DNA of 21,537 nt from a virus: positions 1 to 21,537 of IMG/VR virus record IMGVR_UViG_3300035703_000436. One strand, 5' to 3'. Below are positions 3,001 through 18,027 of the stretch, piece by piece (position 1 is the stretch's first letter; the number at the start of each line of letters is the position of its first letter). A program made the position numbers and the translations under genes. Below the pieces are notes generated by a model. That model did not search any database. It was not told where the DNA came from and was given only the letters and a program-made list of their open reading frames with translations.

Positions 3001-6000
3001 GTAAGCGGAGAGGAAGTTATCTATGCATATGCTGGAGCAGGAACTACACAAGCAATTGGAATTGCACAAACAGTAGTTACTGGAATTGGATTGACGAATA
3101 AACTGCCATCAAGTGTTTATATTGTAAAACTAAATGAAAGTACTGTTAGATTGGCAGCTACTGCAGAAGACGCACTAAAGTCTTCTCCACTAACTTTTGA
3201 CATAACATCAGTTGGAATTGGAACTTCACATACATTTATTGCGAAAAATCAAAATACAAAAAATATTATTGCTATTGACAATTATTTCCAATCACCAATT
3301 GTTGGATCTTCTATCACGACAACTTTAGGAAAAGATGCTTCTATATTTGATAATAGACTCACTTTTACTGGTATAACATCATTCTTTAGTGGAAATCTAA
3401 TTCAAATTAATAATGAGATAATGAAGATTAACACTGTTGGTTTGGGAAGCACAAATGTAATTCTCGTCGATAGACCTTGGATGGGTACAGGACTATCCAC
3501 ACACTCTGCTGGGGATTTGATTAGAATTATAGAGGGAAATTATAATATCATCGACAGTACTATTCATTTCGTAGAAGCTCCTTATGGACCAACTCCAATA
3601 GGATCAATAACAAATCCACCAAATGATAGAGATTGGACTGGAATTACAACTCATTCCACTTTCCAAGGAAGAACTTTCCTGAGAACGGGAAGAGCAAATA
3701 CTTCACAAGAAACATATTCAACTAATTACATTTTTAATAATGTTTCAAATGCATTTAATGGATATGATAATACATTTACATTGACCTTTAATAATCAAAA
3801 TGTAACTGGATTCTCTACCAATAATGCTATTGTATTAATTAATGGTGTTTTCCAAGGTCCACAAGGAGAACAGGCAGTTATTAGAGATTACACATTGATC
3901 GAAAATTCTGGCATTTCGAGCATAAGGTTTACGGGAACAGCTTCTTCTGTGGGATATGATGTGAATAATTCTAATCTTCCAGTTGGTGGAGTAATTGTTT
4001 CGGTCGGTTCTTCATCTGGATTTGGCCTACAACCGTTGATCTCCGCAGGAGGAACTGCGATTGTATCTGCAGCAGGAACAATTGCTTCTATTAGTATTGG
4101 AAATAGTGGATCTGGATATAGAATCGGTATTCAAACAATAGTTAATGTTGGTGTTCAAACTGAGAGTGTAGGAACTCCGAATATAACATTTATCGGAACT
4201 GCATCTGTAAGCAATGGTCATATCATAGGAATTGCAATTACAAATCCAGGTTTTGGATACACCACATCAAATCCACCAATAGTTGTTTTTGATGATCCAC
4301 TATCTTACTCTGATATTCCTTTGATATACAGTTCGTCTTCAACACAAGGATCCGGTTCTGAAGCAAAAATTGATATTGTTGTTGGACAAGGATCAAGTGT
4401 AATTGATTTTACCATCAAAAATACTGGTTATGGATATGGTCAAGGAGAAATTCTAACTTTTGATATTGGAGGAAATAGTGGAATTCAAACTGATATCTCC
4501 AAACCATATTCCGAGTTCCAAGTTACTATCGATAAAACATATAGTGATAATTTCTCTGGATGGGTAGTTGGTGAACTTCAAGTTCTCGATAGTTTCGAAG
4601 ATCTTTTTGATGGCACTTCCAGGAAGTTCCCATTAAAGTTTGGAGGTAACTTAGTAACAATCAGAGCTGCCAAAGGTTCTATTATTGATGTAAGGGCGAC
4701 TCTTCTCATATTCCTCAATGACATTCTCCAAAAACCTGGAGAGGCATACTTATTTGAAGGTGGCAGTGTAGTTGAGTTTAGTGAAGCACCTAAAGAGGGA
4801 GACACCGTAAAGGTCTTGTTCTATAAAGGAAGTGGAGATATTGATGTAGTTTTCCGAGATATACTAGAAACTGTGAAAGTTGGGGACGAGTTAACTCTTA
4901 ATAGTGAACCTGGATTTGGACAAGGAATCGGACTCCAACAAGAAAGTAGAGTTGTTATCGGAATTAATACAACAGATTCTGTCCAAACTAATCCATACAC
5001 TGGTCCAGGAATTACAACTGATGAAACTTTATTGAGACCTGTTAAATGGTGTAAGCAAACATCGGATAGAATTATCAATGGAAGAACTGTTGGAAAAGAC
5101 AGAGTTCAATACGAACCTCTAATTAATCCATCTTCATATCTGATTAATTCTGTTGGTATTGGATCAACAACAATTTATGTTGATAATATTAAACCTTTCT
5201 TCAATGCACAAAACGAAGGTCCATTATTAGGTTTCCAGAATCAAGTTACTTTCACATCACAAGATTCTTTAGTAGCAGCTTCTGCCACTGCTATTGTTTC
5301 TTCTGCTGGAACTATTTCTTCTATCATTATTAATGATGGTGGATACGGTTATGATACTGCTCCAACTGTGATCATCGAAAATCCTGTTGGATTAGCAGTT
5401 TCATATAGAGCAACAGCATCGTCTACAATTTCTTTTGGTATTGTCGATACTATTAGTGTTACTGGACCCGGAACTGGTTATGATTTAGAAAGTCCACCTG
5501 TAGTTCTTATTGAAGAACCTGTTTTATTAAATGAAACTTCTAATGTTATTTCATACTCTGGAGATTCTGGTGTTATTGTTGGTGTTGGAACAACAACTTC
5601 AAAAACAACATTTGATTTATTTATTCCAACAGATTCTTTCTTAAGAAATACAAATATTGTTGAATCTGCTATAACTGTAAGTGGAATTTCATCAGGAGAT
5701 TTCTTCATCATTTACAATTCAAATATCGGAAGTATATCAACATCAATAAATTCTTTTGATTCTTCCAACAATATTATTGGTGTAGGAACACAATTTATTG
5801 ATAATATATATCAAGTTTTATCCGTACAAGATATAACAAAAAATTTGATTGGAATTGGAACAACTACTATTAAGAGAATATCGGTCAATTCGGGCATAAC
5901 TTCAATATTCAATTCTTTCAATGTCGGTCTCTCTACTTCTTATTATGGAAATTATAGTTGGGGTAAGATAATTGTATCTGAACCTTTGGAAAACGGACCA

Positions 6001-6096
6001 TTCAATTCCTACACATTGAATGGTCTTGGCGGTATAACAACATCAACTTTAGTAAACAGAACATCTCCACTAAAATACTTAAATTATACTTCATAA
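1..6096 (+). CDS. Giant baseplate/tail structural protein, gp7-like in part (5' end outside window)
   Basis: The frame is open from the first base with no upstream stop, so the visible 2031 residues lack the true N-terminus. A TTG at position 40 could be called a start but is more likely an internal Leu codon. The gene sits directly before gp8, where T4 carries gene 7. Residues about 361-417 are a 'GEKV...SGDG' module. Residues about 445-482 (QRIADNNYYQYFSYSLKS, then W, L-x-H, GF) follow the pattern of a C-terminal stretch of T4 gp7 (NR-x-YY-x-KS-x-W-x-V-x-H-x-GF). About 701-805 and 829-930 are two related copies of one domain. About 1127-1178 hold an 'INNEIMKI' module. About 1349-1495 and 1757-1840 hold glycine-tyrosine repeats (GSGYR, GFGYT, GYGYD). 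Many VGIGT/S turns occur throughout. No enzymatic motif is visible. A structural role is well supported by context and composition; equivalence to gp7 is an inference. Stop TAA at 6094-6096. Confidence 0.85.
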   Translation, partial: LLNDYFPNVFYYKLENANVDFIGEIKKQIVDDTEVYNHNQINLVNSKYSGMQRVVGVGTTNTFEFNLREYPEESSYTKFTSNLYYTTNSLNAYGPISKVSILSGGSNYEFTPGISTVISSYGSGAIFEVNSKSIGKIVKTEIEDIGFDYPTDLTLNPSLNLPEILQIEPLTSFKSIGVTYGGKNYLTSPGLVVIDGYTNKIVNDVDLRYKIGDPSVKIVKNTYGMFDTTPRIIPINNSNGIGINNISYNSTTKDVTVGFNTGFSDEFPFSIGDKILIENTSVGIGSTARGFNSSEYGYNLFTITSINPALGGNTGSITYNISDYLLPNEFPGTFSALTSFGRVIPEKYFPTFDIKLKKNDFLIGEKVSSESGDGIVESWNNKIEYLKVSTNKELKKGDILVGESSNTKGLIKRKIDFDSYAKLGTDSSVNKGWQYDTGILNNNVQRIADNNYYQYFSYSLKSRVPLETWNDSVSSLNHTTGFLKFSDLIVESQEERTFYDGVFPIESVTDTIVDIIGNINLNCINVFDLASERAYRLGSGIISDEILFQNRILTDYFESVGNRVLIIDDISDQFNSNPRSTRFSTVNEFELDSARTKKYFTFVRDKRFTLERQILVVSLLHDDEFGYLNQYGRVDTYLDLGSFDFSISGTLGQLNFYPIKYSVNDYDISCVSHDLRSTVTGIGQSFIGDIVNINSNQATIPSGSSSAVNIVSIANTYRSSKILVEIGGTDGSYYEFDELNVIHDGTNIDLLEYGQLTSDTLVSGSSPGLGTYIPYFDGSNLKIDFKPNSTSTVNVDINTLNISIASSTSGAVGVGTEELNTALVSSGIATIAASPTPLETIVTEYPNNHSCAYYIVSVEDTTNQRYQMSEVIVIDDGSEASITEFGILQTHSSLGTVGAAVSTNGTQITFTPEPSIDVEVRVFQNALGLVKENILETSIDLTNAEITTGNGFYEGTEKSVRRSFDLTHNQNLIFQRYFDGSDSNIVDINSDTIRIPDHYFVSGEEVIYAYAGAGTTQAIGIAQTVVTGIGLTNKLPSSVYIVKLNESTVRLAATAEDALKSSPLTFDITSVGIGTSHTFIAKNQNTKNIIAIDNYFQSPIVGSSITTTLGKDASIFDNRLTFTGITSFFSGNLIQINNEIMKINTVGLGSTNVILVDRPWMGTGLSTHSAGDLIRIIEGNYNIIDSTIHFVEAPYGPTPIGSITNPPNDRDWTGITTHSTFQGRTFLRTGRANTSQETYSTNYIFNNVSNAFNGYDNTFTLTFNNQNVTGFSTNNAIVLINGVFQGPQGEQAVIRDYTLIENSGISSIRFTGTASSVGYDVNNSNLPVGGVIVSVGSSSGFGLQPLISAGGTAIVSAAGTIASISIGNSGSGYRIGIQTIVNVGVQTESVGTPNITFIGTASVSNGHIIGIAITNPGFGYTTSNPPIVVFDDPLSYSDIPLIYSSSSTQGSGSEAKIDIVVGQGSSVIDFTIKNTGYGYGQGEILTFDIGGNSGIQTDISKPYSEFQVTIDKTYSDNFSGWVVGELQVLDSFEDLFDGTSRKFPLKFGGNLVTIRAAKGSIIDVRATLLIFLNDILQKPGEAYLFEGGSVVEFSEAPKEGDTVKVLFYKGSGDIDVVFRDILETVKVGDELTLNSEPGFGQGIGLQQESRVVIGINTTDSVQTNPYTGPGITTDETLLRPVKWCKQTSDRIINGRTVGKDRVQYEPLINPSSYLINSVGIGSTTIYVDNIKPFFNAQNEGPLLGFQNQVTFTSQDSLVAASATAIVSSAGTISSIIINDGGYGYDTAPTVIIENPVGLAVSYRATASSTISFGIVDTISVTGPGTGYDLESPPVVLIEEPVLLNETSNVISYSGDSGVIVGVGTTTSKTTFDLFIPTDSFLRNTNIVESAITVSGISSGDFFIIYNSNIGSISTSINSFDSSNNIIGVGTQFIDNIYQVLSVQDITKNLIGIGTTTIKRISVNSGITSIFNSFNVGLSTSYYGNYSWGKIIVSEPLENGPFNSYTLNGLGGITTSTLVNRTSPLKYLNYTS
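2101..2790 (+). repeat. Tandem duplicated domain inside the giant gp7-like protein
   Basis: Two consecutive stretches of roughly 100 residues (about 2101-2415 and 2485-2790) align by eye. Copy 1 reads KILVEIGGTDG-YYEFDELNVIHDGTNIDLLEYGQL and copy 2 reads YIVSVEDTTN-RYQMSEVIVIDDGSEASITEFGIL, each followed by a GxxLGT turn and a (K/Q)IxFxP strand. The DNA copies have diverged, so this is an old duplication. Function unknown; it looks like a beta-sandwich-type repeat. Confidence 0.6.
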
Positions 6097-6130: not shown

Positions 6131-7699
6131 ATGGCTGCAATTATAACTGATCAACTTCGTATATTGAATGCAAAGAATTTTATAGCAGGAGTTGCTTCTA
6201 CTAGTAACTCTTACTATTCCTTTGTTGGATTGCCAAATGCCACAGATTATAACTCCAATTGGAATACAAATCCACCTTCTCCTGTAGATAATTTCGATCA
6301 GGAGAATGATTATTGGGATACTATGATTGCATTGAAGAAAATATCAAAAAGTGATGTCAGACAAGTTATAAGAAAAATAACTTGGACTTCTGGAATTACT
6401 TATGATATGTATCGTCATGATATAAGTGTAAATAATCCTTCTCAACCATCAAATTCCTTTGATTTATATTCTGCAAATTATTATGTTGTAAATAGTGATT
6501 ATAGAGTTTATATTTGTCTCCAAAATGGAACTTCTCCAGAAAATCCATCTGGAAGACCTTCTTTAGATGAACCAACTTTCACAGATCTAGAACCAAGAGA
6601 AGCGGGAACAAGTGGAGATGGTTATGTTTGGAAATATCTTTATACCATTAGTCCAAGCGATATTGTAAAGTTTGATTCTACAAATTATATGCCAGTTCCA
6701 CAGAACTGGGAAACAAGCACAAGAGACGCTGCGGTAAGAAATAATGCATCATCCAGTGGACAGTTAAAAATTGTTACTATTACCAATAGGGGTGTTGGAT
6801 TAGGAACTGCAAACAGAACTTATACTAGAGTTCCAATTAAGGGTGATGGTTCTGGAGCAGAAGCGACCATTGTTATTAACAATGATTCCAAGGTGGAGAG
6901 TGTAACGGTTTCAAATGGTGGTTCTGGATATACATTTGGAACTTTAGATTTAGTTTCTGGAAATGTTCCAACTGGTTCCACTTCACCAACTTTCAATGTA
7001 ATTATTCCTCCACAAGGAGGTCATGGTGCAGACATTTATAGAGAACTTGGTGCATATAATGTCCTACTATATTCCAGAATTGAAAATGATACTGAAAATC
7101 CAGACTTTATTACCGGAAACCAAATATCAAGAGTTGGTATCGTAGAAAGTCCTCTTAGTTATAACTCAGATAGTATCTTAACTTTAGATAAAGCAAGTGC
7201 AGTTTATGCTCTTAAGTTAACTGGTATTGGTTATAGTTCTGTGGTTTTCAATCCAGATACCCAGGTAACTCAAACAATTGGAGTAGGTTCAACCGCATTT
7301 GGTAGAGTTATTTCATATGATCAAAATACTGGTGTTTTAAAGTATTGGCAGGATAGATATCATGTTGGTTTTAATACCAATGGAACACAAAATTCTTCAC
7401 CAACATATGGATTCACTCTACATAGATTTACCTCCGATATTGGTAGTGGAGGATCTTTAAATATTTTGGGTGGAAGTGCAATTCTTGCAATTCAAACAAC
7501 ATTTGGCAGTTCCAGCAATCCAGGTATCAGTACCATAATAAATAGTAGGACCTACTATTTGGGTCAACAATTTGTTAAGGGTGTTTCGCAACCAGAAGTT
7601 CAAAAATACTCTGGCAACATCGTTTATGTTGATAATAGACCATCAATTACTAGATCATCAAACCAAAAAGAAGATATCAAAGTCATTTTGCAATTCTAA
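6131..7699 (+). CDS. gp8: Baseplate wedge protein gp8
   Basis: This 522-residue protein is a T4 gp8-family baseplate wedge component. In T4, gp8 dimers bind gp7 and gp10 in each wedge. Diagnostic similarities are GDGYVWKYLYTI at residues 162-173 (T4 GDGYVWEYLFEI) and the C-terminal GNIVYVDNRPSI...IKVILQF at about 495-522 (T4 GEMIYMENRPPI...INILFTF). T4 gp8 is about 334 residues. The extra length lies between these motifs: about residues 210-279 contain the glycine-tyrosine repeat (NGGSGYTFG) and about 370-405 a QTIGVGSTAFGRVISYD module. The N-terminal 200 residues and the C-terminal 100 would then be the wedge core. The gene starts 34 bases after the gp7-like stop, behind a late promoter, and ends 6 bases before the next ATG. 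The family call is firm; the function of the inserts is unknown. Confidence 0.88.
   Translation: MAAIITDQLRILNAKNFIAGVASTSNSYYSFVGLPNATDYNSNWNTNPPSPVDNFDQENDYWDTMIALKKISKSDVRQVIRKITWTSGITYDMYRHDISVNNPSQPSNSFDLYSANYYVVNSDYRVYICLQNGTSPENPSGRPSLDEPTFTDLEPREAGTSGDGYVWKYLYTISPSDIVKFDSTNYMPVPQNWETSTRDAAVRNNASSSGQLKIVTITNRGVGLGTANRTYTRVPIKGDGSGAEATIVINNDSKVESVTVSNGGSGYTFGTLDLVSGNVPTGSTSPTFNVIIPPQGGHGADIYRELGAYNVLLYSRIENDTENPDFITGNQISRVGIVESPLSYNSDSILTLDKASAVYALKLTGIGYSSVVFNPDTQVTQTIGVGSTAFGRVISYDQNTGVLKYWQDRYHVGFNTNGTQNSSPTYGFTLHRFTSDIGSGGSLNILGGSAILAIQTTFGSSSNPGISTIINSRTYYLGQQFVKGVSQPEVQKYSGNIVYVDNRPSITRSSNQKEDIKVILQF
7537..7544 (+). promoter_or_regulatory. Possible internal late promoter for the DUF4815 gene
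   Basis: AATAAATA occurs inside the 3' part of gp8, 161 bases upstream of the ATG at 7706. By eye it is one of only about five places on the + strand that match NATAAATA, and the others lie close to gene starts. It could also be a chance match in AT-rich coding sequence. Confidence 0.3.
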
Positions 7700-7705
7700 G
7701 GAATT

Positions 7706-10700
7706 ATGTCTCAAGAAACTAATCTCAATGTAGCTCCATATTTCGATGACTACAATGAACCAGTAATTGGTGGTAGGGATAATAATTACTACAAAGTCCT
7801 TTTTAAACCAGGATTTCCCGTTCAAGCAAGAGAACTGACTACTCTTCAATCAATATTACAAAATCAAGTTGAACAGTTTGGCACTCACTTTTTCAAAGAA
7901 GGTGCGAAAGTAATTCCAGGATCACTTTCTTTTATCAATCCTTTTTATTATGTTCAATTGGAAGATAACTTCCTAGGAATTCCTATTGAACTTTATATCA
8001 ATGAGTTAGTTGGAAAGAAAGTGAGGGGAGAAGTATCTGGAGTTGTTGGTGTAGTTAAGAAGGTATTAAGCAAAACCGAATCAGAAAGAGATACATATAC
8101 TCTATATGTTGACTTAATTGATTCTGATTCTAATAACTTCACTAATACACAATTTAATGATGGTGAAAATTTAGTTTCTGAAGAACCTATTTCTTTTGGT
8201 TCTACCTTTATTGCGGCCAATGAAGGTTTTGCAAGAACTATTGCTGCAAATGCAACAGGAAAAGGAACTGCTTTTGCCTTAGGTGCAGGTGTTTACTTCT
8301 TAAGAGGATATTTTGTTGATGTAAAGGATGAGATTTTACTTTTAGATCAATATTCCACAAATCCAAGTTATAGAGTTGGATTAGATGTTGTAGAAGAAAT
8401 TATATCTGCAGATGTTGATTCATATTTAAATGATAATGCAAACGGTTTTAATAACTATGCTGCGCCTGGAGCGGATAGATTAAAAATAACTGCAACTTTA
8501 TCAAAAAAACCGATTGATCTTTATGATAGTCCAGGATTTGTAGAACTTGCGAGAGTTGAAAACGGAACTCTTATAAAGATAAACAACAATACTGACTATA
8601 ATCTATTATCAAATGAACTTGCAAGAAGAACTTTTGATGAATCTGGAGATTATTATATTAAAGCATTCAATCTTTTTGTAAGAGAAAGTTTAAATGATAA
8701 TGAAGGGAATGATGGAATATATAATCAAAATCAACTAACCTCAAGTGGTTTAAAACCATCAGAAGATTTGATGGTTTATAAAATATCTCCAGGAAAGGCA
8801 TATATTAGAGGATATGAAGTAGAAACTTTAGCGCCGGCATTTTTAGATGTTCCTAAAACAAGAACGACTAGAACGCTTGAGAATCAATCAGTTAATTTTA
8901 ATTTTGGTGCATCTTTAACAGTAAACAATGTTCATGGATCTCCATCACTAGGTATTAACACTTCATCTACAATTAGTTTAAGAAGTGCTAGGGTTGGCGT
9001 AAATTCAACTTCTCCATCTGGCAAAGAAATAGGCATTGCTAGAGTATATGACTTTGCTCTAGAATCAGGTTCGTATGAGTTTGATAATCAAGCACTCAAT
9101 CGTTGGGACATTTCTCTATATGATGTTCAAACATATGGTGATTTGACTATCAACGAGCCAATCACTTTGACAATTCCAACATATGTTAAAGGAAATTCAA
9201 GTGGAGCAACGGCGTTCCTTAAAAATGCAGTTAGTTCTGGAATAGCACTTACTGTATATCAAATTTCCGGAAACTTTATTAATGGGGAAAAGTTAATCTT
9301 TGATGGAGCTACAGAAACACGAGTAAGCACTGGATACACCGATTATAGTATTTCTGATACAAAATCTCTTTATGCAGTGGTTGGATCTGGAAACACTTTT
9401 AACTCTGATGTTATCCAAACTCCATCAAGAATTATTGGAAATGTAACTATAAGTGCAAGATCATCTGGAATTTCTACAGTTACAAGTCCATTATTCTCTT
9501 TCCCTGGAATTGTAACCACTGGAAATATCGTACAGTATACGAGACCAGGATTTTCGGTAAAATCATTTGCAAAAGTAGATCAAGTATTTACAAATTCTAT
9601 AATAGTTTCAGGAATAACAACTGTTACCGGAGTTTGTGATGGAGGACTTCCACAATCTCAAGTGACAGTTAATGACTTTACCTTAGTAAATTCTTATCTA
9701 CAAAAATCAAATAATATAGTAGAATCAAGTTTATTCCAACCTTTACCAAAGATTAATGTAGAATCTGTAGATTTGAGTAACTCCACCATAATTATAAGAA
9801 AACAATATGATGTCACAATTTCAGATAATTCTACCAATACAATTCAATCAGGAACAGATGAAGTATTCCTTCCATTCGATGAGGAAAGATATGTCTTAAC
9901 AAGATCTGATGGAAGCACTGAAATTTTAACTCCAGATAAGTTTGAATTTAGTGCTGGATCCAATCAATTAACAATCAATGGACTAGGATCAAATAGCACT
10001 GGAAAGTTAATAACCACACTTAGAAAATCTAATGTAACTGCTAAGTCTAAGAGAAAGCAAAGAATAAGCACCATTATAGTAGACAAATCAAAGTATGATT
10101 ATTCCGGAATTGGATCAACTACAATTAATGATGGATTGGAATATGGAAACTATCCATTTGGTACGAGAGTTCAGGATGAAAGAATTTGTCTGAATGTTCC
10201 AGATGTAGTCGATGTTTATGGAATTTTTGAGTCAAATGATACTACAGATCCAACATTATCTAAGATAACCATTGGATCTATGGATGGACCAACATCCAAA
10301 ACTGATGATTTAATTATTGGAGAAACTTTTACAGGAACAATTTCTGGAGCAAAAGGACTATATGCCGAAAGGATTGATAGTGGACAAATTTCTTTCATAT
10401 ATTTAAACTCATCTACTTTCCAAGAAGGAGAAGTTATTAGTTTTAGTGAATCTGGTGTCAATGGAATTGTTTCTGTCATATCTATAGGAAGTAAGAACAT
10501 TTCGAATAACTTTGTTTTGGATAAGGGACAGAAGATTACTCATTATGATTATTCTAATATAAGAAGATTGCCAAACAAGAAAGAACCATCAAGAAAACTA
10601 AAAGTAGTATTTTCATATGGTTACTATGATCAATCCGATAATGGAGATATAACTGTAGCAAATTCTTATGAAACATTTAATTATGGTTCCGAAATTGCAT

Positions 10701-13700
10701 CAGTAAATGGATATAGAAGCACCGATATAATTGATGTTAGACCAAGAGTTAACAATTATACTGTATCCGAAGGAGCAAGATCTCCATTTGAATTTGAAGG
10801 TAGAAGTTTTACAAATGGCAATCATAGCTCAAAGTTTATTTTTGCTTCTGATGAATCTGAAACAATATCATTCAATTATTATCTACCAAGAATAGACCGA
10901 GTTTATCTAACAAAAGATGGAGTTTTCCAAGTAAAATATGGAGCACCATCAGACACTCCACAAATTCCAGAGGAAGTTTCTGGTGCATTGAATATTGCAA
11001 ATATTGCAATTCCACCTTATGTCTATGATGCTAGAAATATAAAAGTAGATTATGTAGAGCATAAGAGATATCAAATGACTGATATCTTTAAACTTGAGAA
11101 TAGAATTAAGAATCTTGAGTATTATACTTCACTATCACTTTTGGAAAATAATACTTCCAACTTATTCATTTCCGATGCCAATGGTCAAAATAGATTTAAG
11201 TCCGGATTCTTTATTGATAATTTCTCTTCTGCAGGAACACAAGATAATAAGATTGGAGTTAGAAATAGTGTAGATTTGAAAAATGGTCAACTAAGACCAT
11301 CTCATTATACTACACAACTTTCTTTGGAAGTTGGTTCAAGTTCTATAGTTGGTTTAGCGTCTACTAGCGTACAAAATCAAGATCAAAGATTTATTAATGA
11401 TCTTGTAGGAACAAACATAAAGAGATCTGGTAGTGTTATAACTCTGGATTATGATGAAGTATCTTGGTTAGAGCAACCATATGCAACAAGAGTGGAAAAT
11501 GTAACTCCATTTTTGGTTCAATTATGGAGCGGCAGTATTAAATTAGAACCAGATACTGATGTCTGGATCGATGTAAATCGTCTAGAACTTAGAGATGTTC
11601 AAATGGAAGGTAGCTTCCTCGGAGTTGCAGAAGCAATGAGGGCAGAAGTTTCCACAACAGCTGACGGATCAAGACTTGGCATCAGTCCAATTATATGGCA
11701 ATCTTGGGAAACTACAGGAATTAGACAAGATATAAGACTTGATTTAAATGCTTCACTAGACACTTCATCCTCTAGTAGTACAGATTTTTCAAATGAAAGA
11801 ACTACAAGTTCAAGTACATCTAGAGATACTGGTGGATTTGAGGCAAATAGAGGAATTCCTACTGAGACTGTAACAACGGATGTAACAACTAGAGATGCAA
11901 CAACAACGGTAACTCAAACATCCACCTTACAAATTTCTGGTTCTGTAAGTTTAACAACTAATCTAGACCAACAAAGGACTGGAGAAAGAAGAACGGTTCG
12001 AGAACAAATAAACACAGAATCTCTAGGAAATAGAGTTATAAGTCGCAATATAATAACATTCCAGCGTTCTAGAAACATAGAATTTAATGCTTCCAGATTA
12101 AAACCAAATACTCAAGTATTTGCATTCTTCGATGATGTTGATGTTAACGCTTATTGTGTGCCAAAGTTACTAGAAATTTCCATGAGTTCTGGAACTTTCT
12201 TAGTTGGTGAAGATGTTGTTGGTTTAATGCCGATAGTTGAAAGAACTTCTTTGGAAGATAGATCTGATGTAAGTTCTTCAACCTCTATTAGATTTAGAGT
12301 TGCTGTTTCTAATCATAAGTATGGACCATATAATTCACCAACAGTTGTTTATTCAAACAATCCTTACGATAGAAATAACACCGTTTCTCCAATTTATTCT
12401 TCAACAAGTAATATTCTGAATATTGATACTTTCAGTCTACAAAACGATACTCAACCACAATATTTTGGTAATATTAGACCAGGAATGATATTGAGAGGTC
12501 AGACTAGTGGTGCTCAAGCTATAGTTACGGAAAATAGACTGATCACAGATTATCAAGGAGTTTTGATTGGATCTTTCTTTGTTCCAAATGGAAGTATTTC
12601 TGGAAATCCAATATTTGAAACTGGAAGATCAGTATTTAGATTGACTAGTAGTTCATCAAATTCAAAGGTTCCTGGAGTTATTACAACTGTCGCTGAAGAG
12701 ATCTTCTACTCTCAGGGAGATATTGACAATACTCAAGAAGTCACACTTTCCTTGAGAAATGCTAGAACTAGTTTTGAAGATTTCACACAAACTAGATCAC
12801 TTACATCTTCAACATCAAGTTCTGATACTGCAACTTCTACTAGTACAACAACTACTAGTTCCACTAACACGGAATTTGTAGGGGCCAATACTACAGTAGA
12901 AAGTGGATATAGAGATCCTCTAGCACAATCATTTATTGTTAGTGATGCGACTGGAGTTTTCGTCACAAAAGTTGATGTTTTCTTCAGAACAAAAGATACC
13001 ACACTTCCAGTGGAGTTCTATATAAGTGAAGTCAATTTAGGAATTCCTACCAAGAAAATAGTACCATTTACAGATGTTTCGGTATATCCAGATCAAATCA
13101 ATACATCAGATGACGCATCTGTGGCGACCACAATTCAGTTTGAAGCACCTGTTTATCTGGAGTCTCAAAAGGAATATGCATTAGTTCTGCTTTCAGACTC
13201 TACAGAGTATACAGTTTGGATTTCTAGACTTGGTGAATTTGATATCCAAACTCTGGATAATCAAAGTACACAAGTTTTAGTATCCACTCAACCATTACTC
13301 GGTTCACTATTCAAGTCACAAAATGCTTCTACATGGGATCCAAGTCAATATGAAGATCTCAAGTTTAAACTTTATCGGGCTAATTTCGTAGATAATGGTT
13401 CTGTTCTTTTCTTCAATCCAACTCTACCTACAGACATTTCTAGATTAACTTCGGATCCTTTTGATATTGATTCAAAGACGGTTAGAATTGGCATTGGAAC
13501 TACTGTAAGAGATAATGATTTAACTAACGGAAATACTATTCTACAGTTAACTTCTGGAGCACAAGGAAATCTTGTAGGAACAGCGGGAACAGCAAAAGGT
13601 GACCTTACTATCATCAATAGCGGAATCGGATACACTCCATCGACAGGTTCATTAACTTTCAACAATTTGACATTAACTAATGTAGAGAGTTCCGGAAGAA

Positions 13701-15370
13701 ATGCCACTGCAAACATTACAATTAGTAATGGTATAGCAATAGCTGCAACCATTGCTAATGGAGGAACTGGTTATTCTGTTGGTGATGTATTAACAGTTTC
13801 TTCTATTGGAATATCATCAGTTGGAAGAAATCTAAGATTAAGTGTTTCCGAATTGAACGGTATTAATGAACTTATAGTGACAGATGTTCAAGGAGAATTT
13901 ACTGTTGGTGCCGGTTATACTGTACAATATATCAACAACTCTGGTATAACAACCAACTTGAATAGTGGTTTTGGTGGAAATGTGACTCTATCTTCACCAG
14001 AAGAAATTATATTTGATGGATTACATGCAAAAGTTTTGCATAGAAATCATGGTATGCACTCTGATGTGAATCAGGTAGTTATAACTGGAGCAAAATCAGA
14101 TATCACTCCAACAACTCTAGCAACAGATTATGCGGCATCATCAACATCTGATATTATTTTATCAAATTCAGCAAACTTCACTACTTTTGAAGGAGTAAGT
14201 GTAGGAAGTACAAATCCAGGATATGCTCTCATTTCAAATGAGATTATCAAATACACTGGAGTGTCTGGAAATTCTCTCACAGGAATTACCAGAGAAATAG
14301 ATGGAACTAAAGCATTCTCATATAATACTGGCGGTTTAGTTTACAAATACGAAATGGACGGAGTATCTCTTCTCAGAATTAATAAGACACATACATTAAG
14401 TGATGCTACAATTCCTGATCCAATAGGACTTGACTATTATCATATTAAGGTTGATATGTCTTCTGGAAATAATACTACTGACAGACAAACTGGATCAGGT
14501 CTTCCAAAACTATTCTTTACTCAAAATGGAAAGTTTGGTGAGAAAGAAGTCAATGCTACCTATAATGTAACATTTGATTTAATAACACCAAACTTTGGAG
14601 TCATTTCTCCAAAATTCACAGCAACTTCCGCATCAGTTAGAACTGTTTCTGGAAAGAGTATTGATGGAAATGAGTCTCCATATGAAGATAAGGGTTTCCA
14701 GTCAATTTCATTGGCAAACCAATCCATTTACTTCGACTCTCCTCGTGTAGTAGCTTCAAAGGTAAACGAAGATTCTAGATTAACTAGTTTGCCTGGAAAT
14801 AAGTCATTTACAATGAATATTAATCTACTATCATCAAACTCTAAAGTATCACCATGTATTGATTTAAATAAGACTAGCGTGATCTTTACTACAAATAGGA
14901 TTAATAATCCAGTTTCAGATTATACAGCAGATTCTAGAGTTAATACTTATTATGAAGATCCAAATGCTTGTATCTATATTTCAAATCCAATCTCACTCAA
15001 AAATCCAGCAACGGCATTGAAATTACTTGTATCTGGTTCTATCCACGAGTCTAATGATATTAGAGCATTCTATTCAATTCAAAATGATTTATCAGAAGAT
15101 CCTATTTTCATTCCTTTCCCAGGATATGGAAATATAGACTCCACTGGAAGAAAGATAGATCCATCAGCAAGTAGTGGATTATCGGATTCATTGATTCCCA
15201 AAAATTCATCATATGAATTCTTACCAACTCCCAAATCCTTTGTTGAATATGAATTTTCAGATGATAACTTACCAAACTTTAAAATCTTTAGAGTCAAATT
15301 GATTATGACTTCAACAAATCAAGCATATCCACCAATTATTCAAGATTTGAGAGCAATTGCTTTAGCATAA
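7706..15370 (+). CDS. Giant DUF4815-family virion structural protein (baseplate/tail fibre)
   Basis: 2554 residues. The N-terminal FKPGFPVQARELTTLQ, QNQVEQFG and HFFKEG (residues 33-66) are the hallmark of the phage DUF4815 domain, found in tail/baseplate proteins of marine myoviruses. Further blocks are: two 'GE-x-SGA' modules (about 493-558 and 868-930); RSTDIIDVRPRVNNY (about 1001-1015) followed by a coiled-coil-like DIFKLENRIKNLEYY; a Ser/Thr-rich linker (about 1350-1435); a 'RPGMILRGQTSGA' module near 1590; a second Ser/Thr linker (about 1696-1725); a RDPLAQSF domain to about 1848, with VDVFFRTKD, PVYLESQKEY and YTVWISRLGE; glycine-tyrosine repeats (about 1964-2045); VLHRNHGMH; an 'ISNEIIKY' module (about 2137-2218); and the terminal DLRAIALA. 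It occupies the place of T4 genes 9-12, so it may replace fibre-attachment proteins (inference). SD-like AAGGA overlaps the gp8 stop, 3 bases before ATG. Confidence 0.85.
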   Translation: MSQETNLNVAPYFDDYNEPVIGGRDNNYYKVLFKPGFPVQARELTTLQSILQNQVEQFGTHFFKEGAKVIPGSLSFINPFYYVQLEDNFLGIPIELYINELVGKKVRGEVSGVVGVVKKVLSKTESERDTYTLYVDLIDSDSNNFTNTQFNDGENLVSEEPISFGSTFIAANEGFARTIAANATGKGTAFALGAGVYFLRGYFVDVKDEILLLDQYSTNPSYRVGLDVVEEIISADVDSYLNDNANGFNNYAAPGADRLKITATLSKKPIDLYDSPGFVELARVENGTLIKINNNTDYNLLSNELARRTFDESGDYYIKAFNLFVRESLNDNEGNDGIYNQNQLTSSGLKPSEDLMVYKISPGKAYIRGYEVETLAPAFLDVPKTRTTRTLENQSVNFNFGASLTVNNVHGSPSLGINTSSTISLRSARVGVNSTSPSGKEIGIARVYDFALESGSYEFDNQALNRWDISLYDVQTYGDLTINEPITLTIPTYVKGNSSGATAFLKNAVSSGIALTVYQISGNFINGEKLIFDGATETRVSTGYTDYSISDTKSLYAVVGSGNTFNSDVIQTPSRIIGNVTISARSSGISTVTSPLFSFPGIVTTGNIVQYTRPGFSVKSFAKVDQVFTNSIIVSGITTVTGVCDGGLPQSQVTVNDFTLVNSYLQKSNNIVESSLFQPLPKINVESVDLSNSTIIIRKQYDVTISDNSTNTIQSGTDEVFLPFDEERYVLTRSDGSTEILTPDKFEFSAGSNQLTINGLGSNSTGKLITTLRKSNVTAKSKRKQRISTIIVDKSKYDYSGIGSTTINDGLEYGNYPFGTRVQDERICLNVPDVVDVYGIFESNDTTDPTLSKITIGSMDGPTSKTDDLIIGETFTGTISGAKGLYAERIDSGQISFIYLNSSTFQEGEVISFSESGVNGIVSVISIGSKNISNNFVLDKGQKITHYDYSNIRRLPNKKEPSRKLKVVFSYGYYDQSDNGDITVANSYETFNYGSEIASVNGYRSTDIIDVRPRVNNYTVSEGARSPFEFEGRSFTNGNHSSKFIFASDESETISFNYYLPRIDRVYLTKDGVFQVKYGAPSDTPQIPEEVSGALNIANIAIPPYVYDARNIKVDYVEHKRYQMTDIFKLENRIKNLEYYTSLSLLENNTSNLFISDANGQNRFKSGFFIDNFSSAGTQDNKIGVRNSVDLKNGQLRPSHYTTQLSLEVGSSSIVGLASTSVQNQDQRFINDLVGTNIKRSGSVITLDYDEVSWLEQPYATRVENVTPFLVQLWSGSIKLEPDTDVWIDVNRLELRDVQMEGSFLGVAEAMRAEVSTTADGSRLGISPIIWQSWETTGIRQDIRLDLNASLDTSSSSSTDFSNERTTSSSTSRDTGGFEANRGIPTETVTTDVTTRDATTTVTQTSTLQISGSVSLTTNLDQQRTGERRTVREQINTESLGNRVISRNIITFQRSRNIEFNASRLKPNTQVFAFFDDVDVNAYCVPKLLEISMSSGTFLVGEDVVGLMPIVERTSLEDRSDVSSSTSIRFRVAVSNHKYGPYNSPTVVYSNNPYDRNNTVSPIYSSTSNILNIDTFSLQNDTQPQYFGNIRPGMILRGQTSGAQAIVTENRLITDYQGVLIGSFFVPNGSISGNPIFETGRSVFRLTSSSSNSKVPGVITTVAEEIFYSQGDIDNTQEVTLSLRNARTSFEDFTQTRSLTSSTSSSDTATSTSTTTTSSTNTEFVGANTTVESGYRDPLAQSFIVSDATGVFVTKVDVFFRTKDTTLPVEFYISEVNLGIPTKKIVPFTDVSVYPDQINTSDDASVATTIQFEAPVYLESQKEYALVLLSDSTEYTVWISRLGEFDIQTLDNQSTQVLVSTQPLLGSLFKSQNASTWDPSQYEDLKFKLYRANFVDNGSVLFFNPTLPTDISRLTSDPFDIDSKTVRIGIGTTVRDNDLTNGNTILQLTSGAQGNLVGTAGTAKGDLTIINSGIGYTPSTGSLTFNNLTLTNVESSGRNATANITISNGIAIAATIANGGTGYSVGDVLTVSSIGISSVGRNLRLSVSELNGINELIVTDVQGEFTVGAGYTVQYINNSGITTNLNSGFGGNVTLSSPEEIIFDGLHAKVLHRNHGMHSDVNQVVITGAKSDITPTTLATDYAASSTSDIILSNSANFTTFEGVSVGSTNPGYALISNEIIKYTGVSGNSLTGITREIDGTKAFSYNTGGLVYKYEMDGVSLLRINKTHTLSDATIPDPIGLDYYHIKVDMSSGNNTTDRQTGSGLPKLFFTQNGKFGEKEVNATYNVTFDLITPNFGVISPKFTATSASVRTVSGKSIDGNESPYEDKGFQSISLANQSIYFDSPRVVASKVNEDSRLTSLPGNKSFTMNINLLSSNSKVSPCIDLNKTSVIFTTNRINNPVSDYTADSRVNTYYEDPNACIYISNPISLKNPATALKLLVSGSIHESNDIRAFYSIQNDLSEDPIFIPFPGYGNIDSTGRKIDPSASSGLSDSLIPKNSSYEFLPTPKSFVEYEFSDDNLPNFKIFRVKLIMTSTNQAYPPIIQDLRAIALA
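11754..12010 (+). repeat. Ser/Thr-rich low-complexity linker 1 in DUF4815 protein
   Basis: About 85 residues (1350-1435) are dominated by Ser, Thr, Asp and Arg, for example DTSSSSSTDF, TTSSSTSRDT and DATTTVTQTS. This is unlike the glycine/beta-turn-rich flanks and looks like an extended or disordered linker between two folded halves. The run is not an exact DNA repeat. Confidence 0.6.
12790..12880 (+). repeat. Ser/Thr-rich low-complexity linker 2 in DUF4815 protein
   Basis: About 30 residues (1696-1725) are nearly all Ser and Thr (RSLTSSTSSSDTATSTSTT and onward), encoded partly by repeated actagt/acaact words. The linker directly precedes the conserved RDPLAQSF domain. Such runs commonly act as flexible tethers and can change length by slippage. 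Confidence 0.6.
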
Positions 15371-15371
15371 A

Positions 15372-15596
15372 ATGAACTTAATACCTGTAGAGGGCGAGAG
15401 AAATCTCGCCCGCGATCTGAGAACAAACGCTATCATTAATACAAATGATCAAGATTATAATGCATATCTTGCTAGGAAAAACTTAGCAACAAATGAAAAA
15501 CAAAGGATTGAAAATTTAGAGAATCAGATTAGCGAAGTTAAAGATGATTTGAATGAGATAAAAATGTTACTTAGGAGATTATCAAATGGATCCTGA
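15372..15596 (+). CDS. Small coiled-coil protein, function unknown
   Basis: 74 residues. The N-terminal half (GERNLARD, TNAIINTN, then YNAYLARK) has the look of a conserved motif I associate with small marine T4-like phage proteins. Residues about 40-72 (KQRIENLENQISEVKDDL...) form a clear amphipathic helix with heptad spacing, so an oligomeric or docking role is plausible. The ATG lies one base after the stop of the DUF4815 gene, so translation is probably coupled to it. The end overlaps the next gene by 11 bases. The first codons encode a strong hairpin (15392-15411). I do not know its function; its position suggests an accessory tail/neck assembly factor. Confidence 0.75.
   Translation: MNLIPVEGERNLARDLRTNAIINTNDQDYNAYLARKNLATNEKQRIENLENQISEVKDDLNEIKMLLRRLSNGS
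15392..15411 (+). other. Perfect GC-rich hairpin with GNRA tetraloop inside a coding start
   Basis: GGGCGAGA (15392-15399), loop GAAA, then TCTCGCCC (15404-15411) make a perfect 8-base-pair stem with six G-C pairs, closed by a stable GNRA tetraloop. It stands out in this AT-rich DNA. It starts 20 bases after the A of the ATG of the 74-residue gene, just downstream of the 7.7-kb gene. No T-tract follows (GCGATCTG), so it is not a canonical intrinsic terminator. Transcript stabilisation, RNA processing or translation control are options. Confidence 0.8.
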
Positions 15597-15771
15597 TTCT
15601 ATAAAATTGAATGATTTGTCCAAAAATTTTGAATATACTAAAGCTTGCATAGAAATAGATTCTATAGAAGATATAGAAGAACTGAAGAATATAAGTAAAT
15701 CTTACATGAAATTATACATGAAACAGCAAGAAGTATTATCAGATATGCTCTCTCAACCAAATCATAAATAA
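15586..15771 (+). CDS. Small acidic protein, function unknown
   Basis: 61 residues, acidic and predicted helical: an N-terminal DLSKNFEYTKACIEIDSIED block, then helix SYMKLYMKQQEVLSDML. There is no signal peptide or membrane segment. The start is supported by AGGAG at 15573-15577, 8 bases before the ATG, inside the upstream gene that it overlaps by 11 bases. Its stop codon TAA (15769-15771) overlaps the late promoter for gp13. I recall similar small proteins at this position in cyanophages but no assigned function. A helper in neck or tail assembly is only a guess from location. Confidence 0.7.
   Translation: MDPDSIKLNDLSKNFEYTKACIEIDSIEDIEELKNISKSYMKLYMKQQEVLSDMLSQPNHK
15763..15770 (+). promoter_or_regulatory. 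T4-type late promoter before gp13
   Basis: CATAAATA matches the NATAAATA late promoter and overlaps the stop of the 61-residue gene, ending 21 bases before the gp13 ATG. It would place the neck genes 13-14 under their own late promoter. Confidence 0.6.
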
Positions 15772-15775
15772 TTTC

Positions 15776-15781
15776 AAGAGG
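15776..15781 (+). promoter_or_regulatory. Ribosome binding site of gp13
   Basis: AAGAGG lies 10 bases before the ATG at 15792 and supports that start. It is one of the few clear Shine-Dalgarno sequences in the window. Confidence 0.6.
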
Positions 15782-15791
15782 TATTAAATAA

Positions 15792-16640
15792 ATGGCGCAA
15801 CCTTCTTCTAGACAAGAACTAATAGATTACTGCAAAAGAAAACTGGGTGCGCCAGTTTTAGAAATTAATGTTGCAGATGAACAGATAGATGATCTGGTAG
15901 ATGATGCAATACAATTTTTTCAAGAGAGACATTTCGATGGCGTCTCTCAGATGTACTTAAAATATCAAATCACACAAGATGATATTGATAGAGGAAGAGC
16001 TCCAAATGGAAATAATCCAAGTGCAGGAATAGTTACATCAACAGCATCGACAAATATAAATGGATCTACGGTAACATTTGACTATAAAGAAAGTAGCAAT
16101 TACTTACAAGTACCACCTTCAGTTATTGGTGTGACCAAAGTTCTTCACTTTGATGGTACTAACACTGTTACCAATAATATGTTTAGTGTAAAATATCAAT
16201 TATTCTTGAATGATATCTATTATTGGGGATCGACAGAACTTTTAACTTATGCGATGGTCAAAACTTATCTTGAAGATATGGATTTTCTTTTGACAACTCA
16301 AAAGCAAATTCGTTTCAATCAAAGAATGGATAGATTGTATCTTGACATTGACTGGGGAAGCGTTAATGTCAATGACTATTTAATTATCGATTGCTATAGA
16401 ACATTAGATCCAAATGATTTTGCTAGAGTTTGGAATGATTCTTTCCTAAAACCATATTTAACCTCACTTATAAAACGTCAATGGGGACAGAATCTCATTA
16501 AATTCCAAGGAGTAAAACTTCCTGGTGGTGTAGAGTTAAATGGTAGACAAATATATGATGATGCTCAGAAAGAAATTGATATGATCATGGAAAAAATGTC
16601 AAATACTTATGAACTTCCACCTCTAGACATGATCGGATAA
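15792..16640 (+). CDS. gp13: Neck protein gp13 (head completion)
   Basis: 282 residues; T4 gp13 is about 309. In T4, gp13 and gp14 form the neck that seals the DNA-filled head below the portal and receives the tail. Supporting sequence: an N-terminal helix-rich block with RKLGAPVLEINV and an acidic IDDLVDDAIQFFQERHFDG stretch (residues 16-50), and the C-terminal KRQWG (228-232) followed by LPGGVELNGRQIYDDA, matching the T4 KRQWG...LPGGV-LNG signature. The middle (about residues 70-120) is Ser/Thr/Asn-rich with VIGVTKVLHFDG. There is a good ribosome binding site and an upstream late promoter. gp14 follows 4 bases after the stop, so the two partners are probably made together. The core appears complete, with no large insert, unlike its neighbours. 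Confidence 0.93.
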   Translation: MAQPSSRQELIDYCKRKLGAPVLEINVADEQIDDLVDDAIQFFQERHFDGVSQMYLKYQITQDDIDRGRAPNGNNPSAGIVTSTASTNINGSTVTFDYKESSNYLQVPPSVIGVTKVLHFDGTNTVTNNMFSVKYQLFLNDIYYWGSTELLTYAMVKTYLEDMDFLLTTQKQIRFNQRMDRLYLDIDWGSVNVNDYLIIDCYRTLDPNDFARVWNDSFLKPYLTSLIKRQWGQNLIKFQGVKLPGGVELNGRQIYDDAQKEIDMIMEKMSNTYELPPLDMIG

Positions 16641-16644
16641 TCAT

Positions 16645-18027
16645 ATGCTTAATCCATTTTTTCAACAAGGTTCAAAGACAGAGCAAGGATTAATACAAGA
16701 CCTGATCAACGAACAATTGAGGATGTATGGAGTTGAGGTTTATTATTTACCTAGACAATATGTTACAGAAAAAACAATAATAAAAGAAGTCATAGAATCT
16801 AAATTTGATCATGCATATCCAATTGAGGCATATGTCGATACTTATGAAGGATATAATGGATTAGGAACATTGATGTCAAAATTCGGCATTCAGGAAATGG
16901 ATGATTTGATTTTGACAATATCAAGAGAGAGATTTGAAAACTACATAACTCCATTGATTCAAAATATTCCAAATATTAAACTTTCATCAAGACCAAAAGA
17001 GGGAGATTTAATCTATTTTCCACTTGGTGATAGGTTGTTTGAAATTAAGTATGTTGAGCATGAAAAACCATTCTATCAACTACAGAAAAACTATGTTTAT
17101 CAGTTGACATGCGAACTCTTCAGATACGAAGATGAAATCATTGATACTAATGTAGATGAGATTGATGATAATATTGTAGATCAGGGTTACATTCAAACAC
17201 TAACACTTGTTGGTAGTGCATCTACAGCAACAGCAATAACAGGAATAGTAAATGGTGGTGTGAGAAGAATTACACTCACAAATAGGGGAAGTGGATACAC
17301 TTCTATACCTAGAGTTGCAATTTCTTCTGCTCCAACCGGAGGTTTAACTGCTATTGGTATTGCAACTATGATTTCTGGAATCATTGATTGTAACGGAGTG
17401 GCATCAGACAAAATACAAGGAGTTGAGATAGTAAATCCTGGATATGGATATACTGTTGCTCCAGGAGTTTCATTTATTGGTGGAGGTGGAGTTGGTGCTG
17501 CAGCCACTACAGAAATTGCAGATGGTGTTATTGGAATAATAACAATTACAAACGGAGGATCTGGTTATACATCTTTACCAATTGTAACTATTAGTTCTCC
17601 AGGAATAGGAACAACAGCTTCAGCATTTGCTGTTGTAAGTGCTGCTGGAACAATTACATCAATAAGAGTTATCGATGCTGGTGTTGGATATACTGTTGCA
17701 CCAACAATATCAATCGCATCTCCAATCGTTGGTAGTGGAAATACCGGATCTTATATTTTCAATGAAATTGTTACCGGATCAGTAAGTGGAACAACAGCAA
17801 GAGTGAAGAAATGGAGTGCTGTAAGTAATATTCTAGAGGTATCTGTAATTTCAGGTTCATTTGTTTCTGGAGAAACTATTGTTGGAACTGCAAGTAGTGC
17901 TACTAGAATTCTTAGAACGGTTGATGTAGACGATATCAATGATCCATATGCACAAAATGATGTAATAGAGGAAGAAGCAGATCAAATAATCGATTTTTCA
18001 GAGATAAATCCTTTTGGTATGCCTTGA
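16645..18027 (+). CDS. gp14: Neck protein gp14 with large repeat insertion
   Basis: 460 residues against about 256 in T4. The first 175 residues are the gp14 core: RMYGVEVYYLPRQYV (26-40; T4 KMRGVELYYIPREFV), YVDTYEGYNGLGTLMSKFGIQ, EGDLIYFPL, and FEIKYVEHEKPFYQ from about residue 132. About 187-362 then carry four glycine-tyrosine repeats (GSGYTSIP, GYGYTVAP, GSGYTSLP, GVGYTVAP), each followed by a hydrophobic strand and an Ala/Gly-rich turn. About 371-427 is an 'EIVTGSVSGTTA...GETIVGTASSA' module. The tail is acidic and ends FSEINPFGMP. The core role is neck assembly and head closure together with gp13. The added region probably projects from the neck as a beta-rich decoration; whether it binds host surface or just stabilises the virion is unknown. 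Confidence 0.92.
   Translation: MLNPFFQQGSKTEQGLIQDLINEQLRMYGVEVYYLPRQYVTEKTIIKEVIESKFDHAYPIEAYVDTYEGYNGLGTLMSKFGIQEMDDLILTISRERFENYITPLIQNIPNIKLSSRPKEGDLIYFPLGDRLFEIKYVEHEKPFYQLQKNYVYQLTCELFRYEDEIIDTNVDEIDDNIVDQGYIQTLTLVGSASTATAITGIVNGGVRRITLTNRGSGYTSIPRVAISSAPTGGLTAIGIATMISGIIDCNGVASDKIQGVEIVNPGYGYTVAPGVSFIGGGGVGAAATTEIADGVIGIITITNGGSGYTSLPIVTISSPGIGTTASAFAVVSAAGTITSIRVIDAGVGYTVAPTISIASPIVGSGNTGSYIFNEIVTGSVSGTTARVKKWSAVSNILEVSVISGSFVSGETIVGTASSATRILRTVDVDDINDPYAQNDVIEEEADQIIDFSEINPFGMP
17203..17730 (+). repeat. Four glycine-tyrosine repeats in gp14
   Basis: Repeat cores at the protein level are ITLTNRGSGYTSIPRVAI, VEIVNPGYGYTVAPGVSF, ITITNGGSGYTSLPIVTI and IRVIDAGVGYTVAPTISI. The unit is about 40-50 residues: strand, N/D-x-G-x-GYT, x-x-P, strand, then a Gly/Ala turn. 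DNA copies differ at synonymous positions. The same unit appears in three other proteins of this window. Confidence 0.8.

Follow-up and report, generated by a model that had tools for sequence, protein, structure and literature searches.

Stem-loops that lie inside coding sequences and aid initiation are already known from a few bacterial genes. In E. coli, fepA and also bamA have an activating stem-loop near position +20 of the coding sequence (Jagodnik et al. 2017, as described in PMC12692685 and PMC7769764). In structure-assisted RNA translation (START), the structures begin at about +16, and the accessible text of the study describes a screen of eight bacterial and six eukaryotic genomes that includes no phages (PMC7664666). 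Phages have their own examples: stem-loops are found at the starts of T4 gene e and others (PMC3014915), and the manA, wcaG, and PhotoRC-II RNAs are structured RNAs of marine phages (PMC2864571). Conserved structures in viral mRNAs, those of phages included, were surveyed in 2019 (PMC6563262). The literature searched, from which subscription papers were mostly absent, contained no published report of the phrog_473 hairpin described below; the family may be included in that survey.

The hairpin and its host gene

The window studied here is the whole of a 21.5-kb virus record with T4-type structural genes: gp8, an ORF of 2554 aa, a 74-aa gene, a 61-aa gene, neck proteins, gp15, and gp16. Among its named relatives (259 records), phages of Synechococcus and Prochlorococcus predominate, and its source is a T4-like marine cyanophage. 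The 74-aa gene (15372-15596, plus strand) belongs to phrog_473, 'virion structural protein', equivalent to T4-GC 112. It both matches the PHROGs profile (E = 6e-23) and lies behind the giant ORF, and isolates with annotated orthologues have the same order. Comparison of the family with solved structures gave weak matches alone, to short nucleoporin chains (E 0.06-0.1). The giant structural ORF (phrog_358, 7706-15370, plus strand) is named 'VrlC', 'virulence-associated', or structural protein in isolates, and T4-GC 112 is usually found directly behind it or overlapping it in those we fetched. The next small gene (phrog_27081, 61 aa, 15586-15771, plus strand) overlaps the 74-aa gene in turn.

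The stop of the giant ORF and the start of the 74-aa gene are separated by a single base (TAA-A-ATG, 15368-15374, plus strand), and the 20 nt that precede the ATG at 15372 contain no Shine-Dalgarno (SD) match (duplex energy +1.3). Of 76 IMG/VR sequences, 38 have a gap of 1 nt (median 1), and an SD better than -5 kcal/mol is present in 13% of 75 relatives. A fusion with the giant ORF by frameshift or readthrough was rejected, since the stop-to-start distance varies in frame among relatives (1, 2, -4, 5, 6, 7, and others), leaving no fixed recoding frame.

With the A of the ATG as +1, the hairpin spans +21 to +40 of the 74-aa ORF (15392-15411, plus strand), and its stem begins 21 bases after the stop at 15370. 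The 5' arm, GGGCGAGA (15392-15399), and the 3' arm, TCTCGCCC (15404-15411), enclose a GAAA loop (15400-15403) and form a perfect stem of 8 bp, 6 of them G-C, exactly as an earlier note on this sequence had described it, at the same coordinates. The 37 nt that contain the hairpin fold at -16.3 to -16.6 kcal/mol, and its 30-nt energy of -16.4 kcal/mol is the lowest on either strand of the window. The earlier note had called it by far the most stable local structure; most stable it is, but 'by far' is slightly too strong because the runners-up reach -14.5 (minus strand) and -13.1 kcal/mol (plus strand). Perfect 8-bp stems with at least 6 G-C pairs are expected 0.002 times per dinucleotide-shuffled window (500 shuffles), and none of 300 synonymous-codon shuffles of the gene start folds as well (z -4.3 to -4.6). 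Compared with dinucleotide shuffles, longer stretches around it stand out less (z -2.8 for 79 nt and -2.0 for 129 nt). The start codon is unpaired in the 129-nt fold.

No run of T follows 15411, and a terminator scan of 14000-17000 did not report 15392-15411. This bears out the remark that the hairpin lacks a T-tract, and an intrinsic terminator was rejected on these grounds. We also rejected a known RNA family, because Rfam gave 0 matches at the gathering threshold and none at E up to 1 for 15300-15500; there is no tRNA in the window. Perfect inverted repeats also occur near the end of gp8 (10 bp, 7540-7560) and near the end of the first long ORF (11 bp, 5996-6025).

Structure across the gene family

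We compared the folding energies of 45-nt segments with those obtained when codons were swapped for synonyms drawn from each locus. The IMG/VR relatives are the best 80 of at least 591 matches in an alignment scan and comprise 76 distinct sequences, or 75 once one with ambiguous letters was dropped. The excess of predicted structure peaks at +19 to +63, where the mean z is -2.62 and 55% of the 75 relatives are below -2, against a mean of -0.23 and 6.2% below -2 in 2,115 control segments. Segments starting at +1, +28, and +37 have mean z of -0.51, -0.89, and -0.34, a smaller second dip, down to -0.83, occurs at +73 to +135, and values close to background (means from +0.07 to -0.62) are seen over the final 300 nt of the upstream gene. 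The relatives are not independent, and clustering helps, yet falls short of a full tree test: Wilcoxon tests give p = 2.1e-10 for 43 protein clusters, p = 2.7e-5 for 19 (-2.50 versus -0.19 in controls), and p = 0.016 for 7. The earlier note had wondered whether constraint on the encoded peptide GERNLARD could be involved; as the sole cause, this is ruled out because the shuffles keep the protein. These results argue strongly for a cis-acting mRNA hairpin in the start of this virion gene, which selection very probably keeps at this place in the gene family. The excess of predicted structure at +19 to +63 of phrog_473, at the level of the family and with protein and codon usage held constant, is the main new result of this study.

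Among nine close IMG/VR loci, the exact 20-mer is kept in five (L001-L004 and L009). The stem has 8 pairs in L007 and 7 in L008, both with the same replacement of C-G by A-U, which coincides with an Ala to Ser change in the protein. We interpret this replacement as one compensatory change in the closest clade, and RNA-level selection, merely suspected in the earlier note, is supported both by it and by the family-wide test. The stem of L006 has 6 Watson-Crick pairs and one G-U. In L005 the peptide GERNLARD is unchanged, yet only 2 Watson-Crick and 2 G-U of the 8 pairs are left. Such a case, the same protein motif with no stem, had been named beforehand as evidence against the proposal; it exists once, and shows that the stem can be lost, while the family-wide signal stands. 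The alignment of the closest clade (A2) comprises eight distinct sequences, with pairing in 90.6% of its cells and changes on both sides at one pair. Of 500 shuffles, 21 attain its covariation score; taken alone, this clade is suggestive only. The start of the gene in L009 (3001-3174) is the same as that in the window, with a 48-bp in-frame deletion just 3' of the hairpin, between ACAAATGA direct repeats.

The exact 20-mer is found in 13 IMG/VR stretches, i.e., 5 orthologues of the 74-aa gene and 8 unrelated contigs (L048, L050-L052, and L056-L059). At least five of the latter (L052 and L056-L059) have T-rich tails typical of terminators after it, and in the eight unrelated contigs the 20-mer is apparently a convergent terminator-type hairpin. 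The 20-mer itself is thus without lineage meaning, and a conserved exact motif was rejected.

Pairing was followed further in 100 codon-aligned sequences, with duplicates merged, rows with N dropped, and SynMITS9220M01 (identical to L105) not recounted. The best continuous helix occurs in many registers, the commonest holding 17, 16, 11, and 8 sequences, and the register differs between clades. It is thus the place of the hairpin, not a fixed sequence, that seems to be selected: a stem would be wanted here whatever its letters. In groups A3 and A4 (28 and 30 sequences), the covariation score is reached by 0 and 1 of 500 shuffles, in counts that lean towards these groups' own structures, around which they were assembled by eye. 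The 5' edge of the stem, in a search region that began near +13 and thereby bounds its left side, has a median of +22 (IQR 20-26) and lies within +16 to +30 in 78% of cases (50 structured sequences of the 100). Orthologues with longer N-termini can have the stem further in, at +34 and +44, so the distance from the ATG is not fixed. Structure is slightly stronger in sense than in antisense (-2.39 versus -2.11, p = 0.01, rows not independent), and G-U modestly exceeds A-C among off-pairs (38 to 25), which is weak evidence, in the right direction, for RNA over DNA.

The peak is at the same place, and weaker, in 26 named isolates (mean z -1.69, 9 of 26 below -2). Strong hairpins occur in S-WAM2, S-SM2, S-CAM22, S-MbCM100, P-HM1, P-SSM2, Bellamy, and ACG-2014b, among others. 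In the fixed +19 to +63 segment, 17 of the 26 isolates are not below -2, and the hairpin is absent from S-PM2, S-8S55, Mosig, S-H38, two Vibrio phages, and Cygsa01.

Some of this signal belongs to a trend common to gene starts, because other cyanophage gene starts also carry excess structure: at +19, 138 other starts in five cyanophage records have a mean z of -0.79, with 19% below -2. The hairpin gene ranks 1/35 among the gene starts of S-SM2, 1/30 in S-WAM2, 2/42 in P-SSM2, 24/25 in S-PM2, and 1/11 in the window, S-SM2 and S-WAM2 having been picked after their hairpins were seen and S-PM2 and P-SSM2 added later. Three other families, whose sets are closer relatives than those of phrog_473 and not a matched control, range from modest structure in gp15 (-1.25 at best) to a mean z of -2.0 at +55 to +99 of gp17 (large terminase, L172-L251; 45% of 74 below -2) and of -5.78 at +55 of gp20 (portal, L332-L411; 72 of 72 distinct relatives below -2). 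Hairpins early in ORFs thus also occur outside the family of the 74-aa gene. The gp20 hairpin is of the CCCCGTTCC...GGACGGGG type, at about +60 to +95, and is also present in P-SSM2 (L171:31463) and S-SM2 (L168:38805); S-PM2 has a different hairpin nearby. The gp17 genes of S-PM2 and P-SSM2 have strong early hairpins at +19 too, and in the window a perfect 8-bp stem with a 5-nt loop (15839-15859) lies at about +48 of the next neck gene (Ad2). It is possible, if somewhat doubtful, that hairpins just inside ORFs form a general punctuation system in the tightly packed late operons of T4-like cyanophages. Those of phrog_473 (+20), gp20 (+60), and gp17 might then be instances of a gene-by-gene control of translation restart or of mRNA ends, in which the exact pairing would be disposable and the presence of a stem would not.

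Candidate roles of the hairpin

The reading we favour, tentatively, is that of an early-coding 'starting block', a stem-loop that may aid initiation or reinitiation on a presumably coupled gene without SD. Ribosomes ending the giant ORF at the TAA (15368-15370) would meet the ATG one base on, with no SD to place them. The leading edge of a ribosome on an ATG lies, from its footprint, just short of +21. A stem that begins at +21, just past this edge, would hold the ribosome or the 30S subunit at the ATG. This would promote reinitiation and determine how much of the 74-aa protein is made relative to the giant one. The position suggests a role in translation start, given the median edge of +22, the median gap of 1 nt, and the near absence of SD. 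A trade-off between SD and hairpin was rejected, because neither SD strength nor gap correlates with the z of the hairpin. The gp20 hairpin, at about +60, does not fit a block at +20. Of the earlier proposal that the hairpin slows early elongation and so tunes the small gene, the tuning is retained, with initiation as a likelier step than elongation. A large viral gene family in which the hairpin keeps its spot while its register changes would offer a natural experiment on stem-loops of this kind, in which synonymous evolution, rather than single mutants, would define the required location of the stem. It would also bear on how phages express packed genes that lack SD sites.

The main rival, possible but on balance doubtful, is that the hairpin marks the 3' boundary of the giant gene, placed within the following ORF for want of intergenic space. 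It would block 3'-to-5' decay or mark a processing site, and keep the mRNA of the giant gene apart from the downstream genes. The stem is indeed 21 nt past the giant-gene stop, most of the isolates fetched have the 74-aa gene immediately after the giant gene or overlapping it, the gp20 hairpin likewise lies a short way past the end of gp19, the tail-tube gene, and register turnover fits a simple physical barrier. The isolates weigh mildly on the other side: P-SSM2 has a strong hairpin (z -4.6) behind the small T4-GC 111, and in P-SSM7, too, the hairpin, here a moderate one, follows a small gene. Because the P-SSM2 hairpin follows a small gene, not the giant one, we give less weight to the suggestion, made in the earlier note, that the hairpin protects the 3' end of the long transcript.

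It is rather unlikely that the hairpin is a brake, slowing early elongation or lowering the output of the small gene to a low copy number. A very stable stem within the first 14 codons, and a small virion protein encoded beside a giant one, would suit this role, and sequence does not separate it from a starting block. However, a 5' edge just past the initiating ribosome is an odd place for pure elongation control. We consider unlikely that the hairpin has no function and is a by-product of shared descent and of a conserved peptide whose L-x-R-D-P codons are partly self-complementary. The D-L-x-R-D codons do tend to pair mutually, the rows are related, and L005 and several isolates have no stem, but shuffles that preserve the peptide and local codon usage still give -2.62, the cluster-level test stays significant, and similar peptides use different registers. 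Finally, a palindrome acting in DNA, as a protein-binding site or recombination hot spot, is very unlikely: many stems are pure Watson-Crick, antisense structure is nearly as strong (-2.11), and the 48-bp in-frame deletion of L009 lies just downstream between short direct repeats, but sequence and register change freely between clades, unlike a binding site, the sense strand is slightly favoured, and G-U pairs are tolerated.

Comparison with described elements

Structured RNAs are shared with other T4-like cyanophages, in which manA, wcaG, and PhotoRC-II RNAs were described. According to the sections of that report available, manA RNAs occupy potential 5' UTRs, and metabolic genes appear to be under the control of wcaG RNAs (PMC2864571), whereas the window has no Rfam match. 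In T4 itself, mRNA structure also occurs at gene starts, and the accessible account is that the stem-loops of gene e act at the initiation region, where they inhibit the translation of early transcripts (PMC3014915). Unlike these, the stem of the window is past the start codon and leaves it free.

The resemblance to START, as its available text presents it, lies in the region concerned (+16 to +65) and in the selection of a start codon by downstream structure (PMC7664666). The MFE ratio, at least 2 in START, is 1.93 in the window with 300 mononucleotide shuffles and 1.86 with dinucleotide shuffles. Of the 76 IMG/VR sequences, counting the window, 32 attain a ratio of 2, as do 7 of the 26 isolates and 16 of the 138 other gene starts. 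The window further differs from the START cases described there in that many relatives have the stem and its pairing changes. As for fepA and bamA, the citing papers present them as cellular genes under the sRNAs OmrA/B, whereas the hairpin of the window belongs to a phage gene that starts one base after a giant ORF, with no known sRNA. In all of them the stem-loop is inside the ORF at about +20 (edge at +21 in the window; median +22 in 50 structured relatives), and the region of the start codon is unstructured, in the window as judged from the 129-nt fold. The stem-loop of fepA and bamA was proposed to position the initiating ribosome, and by its position the hairpin of the window may be likened to it.
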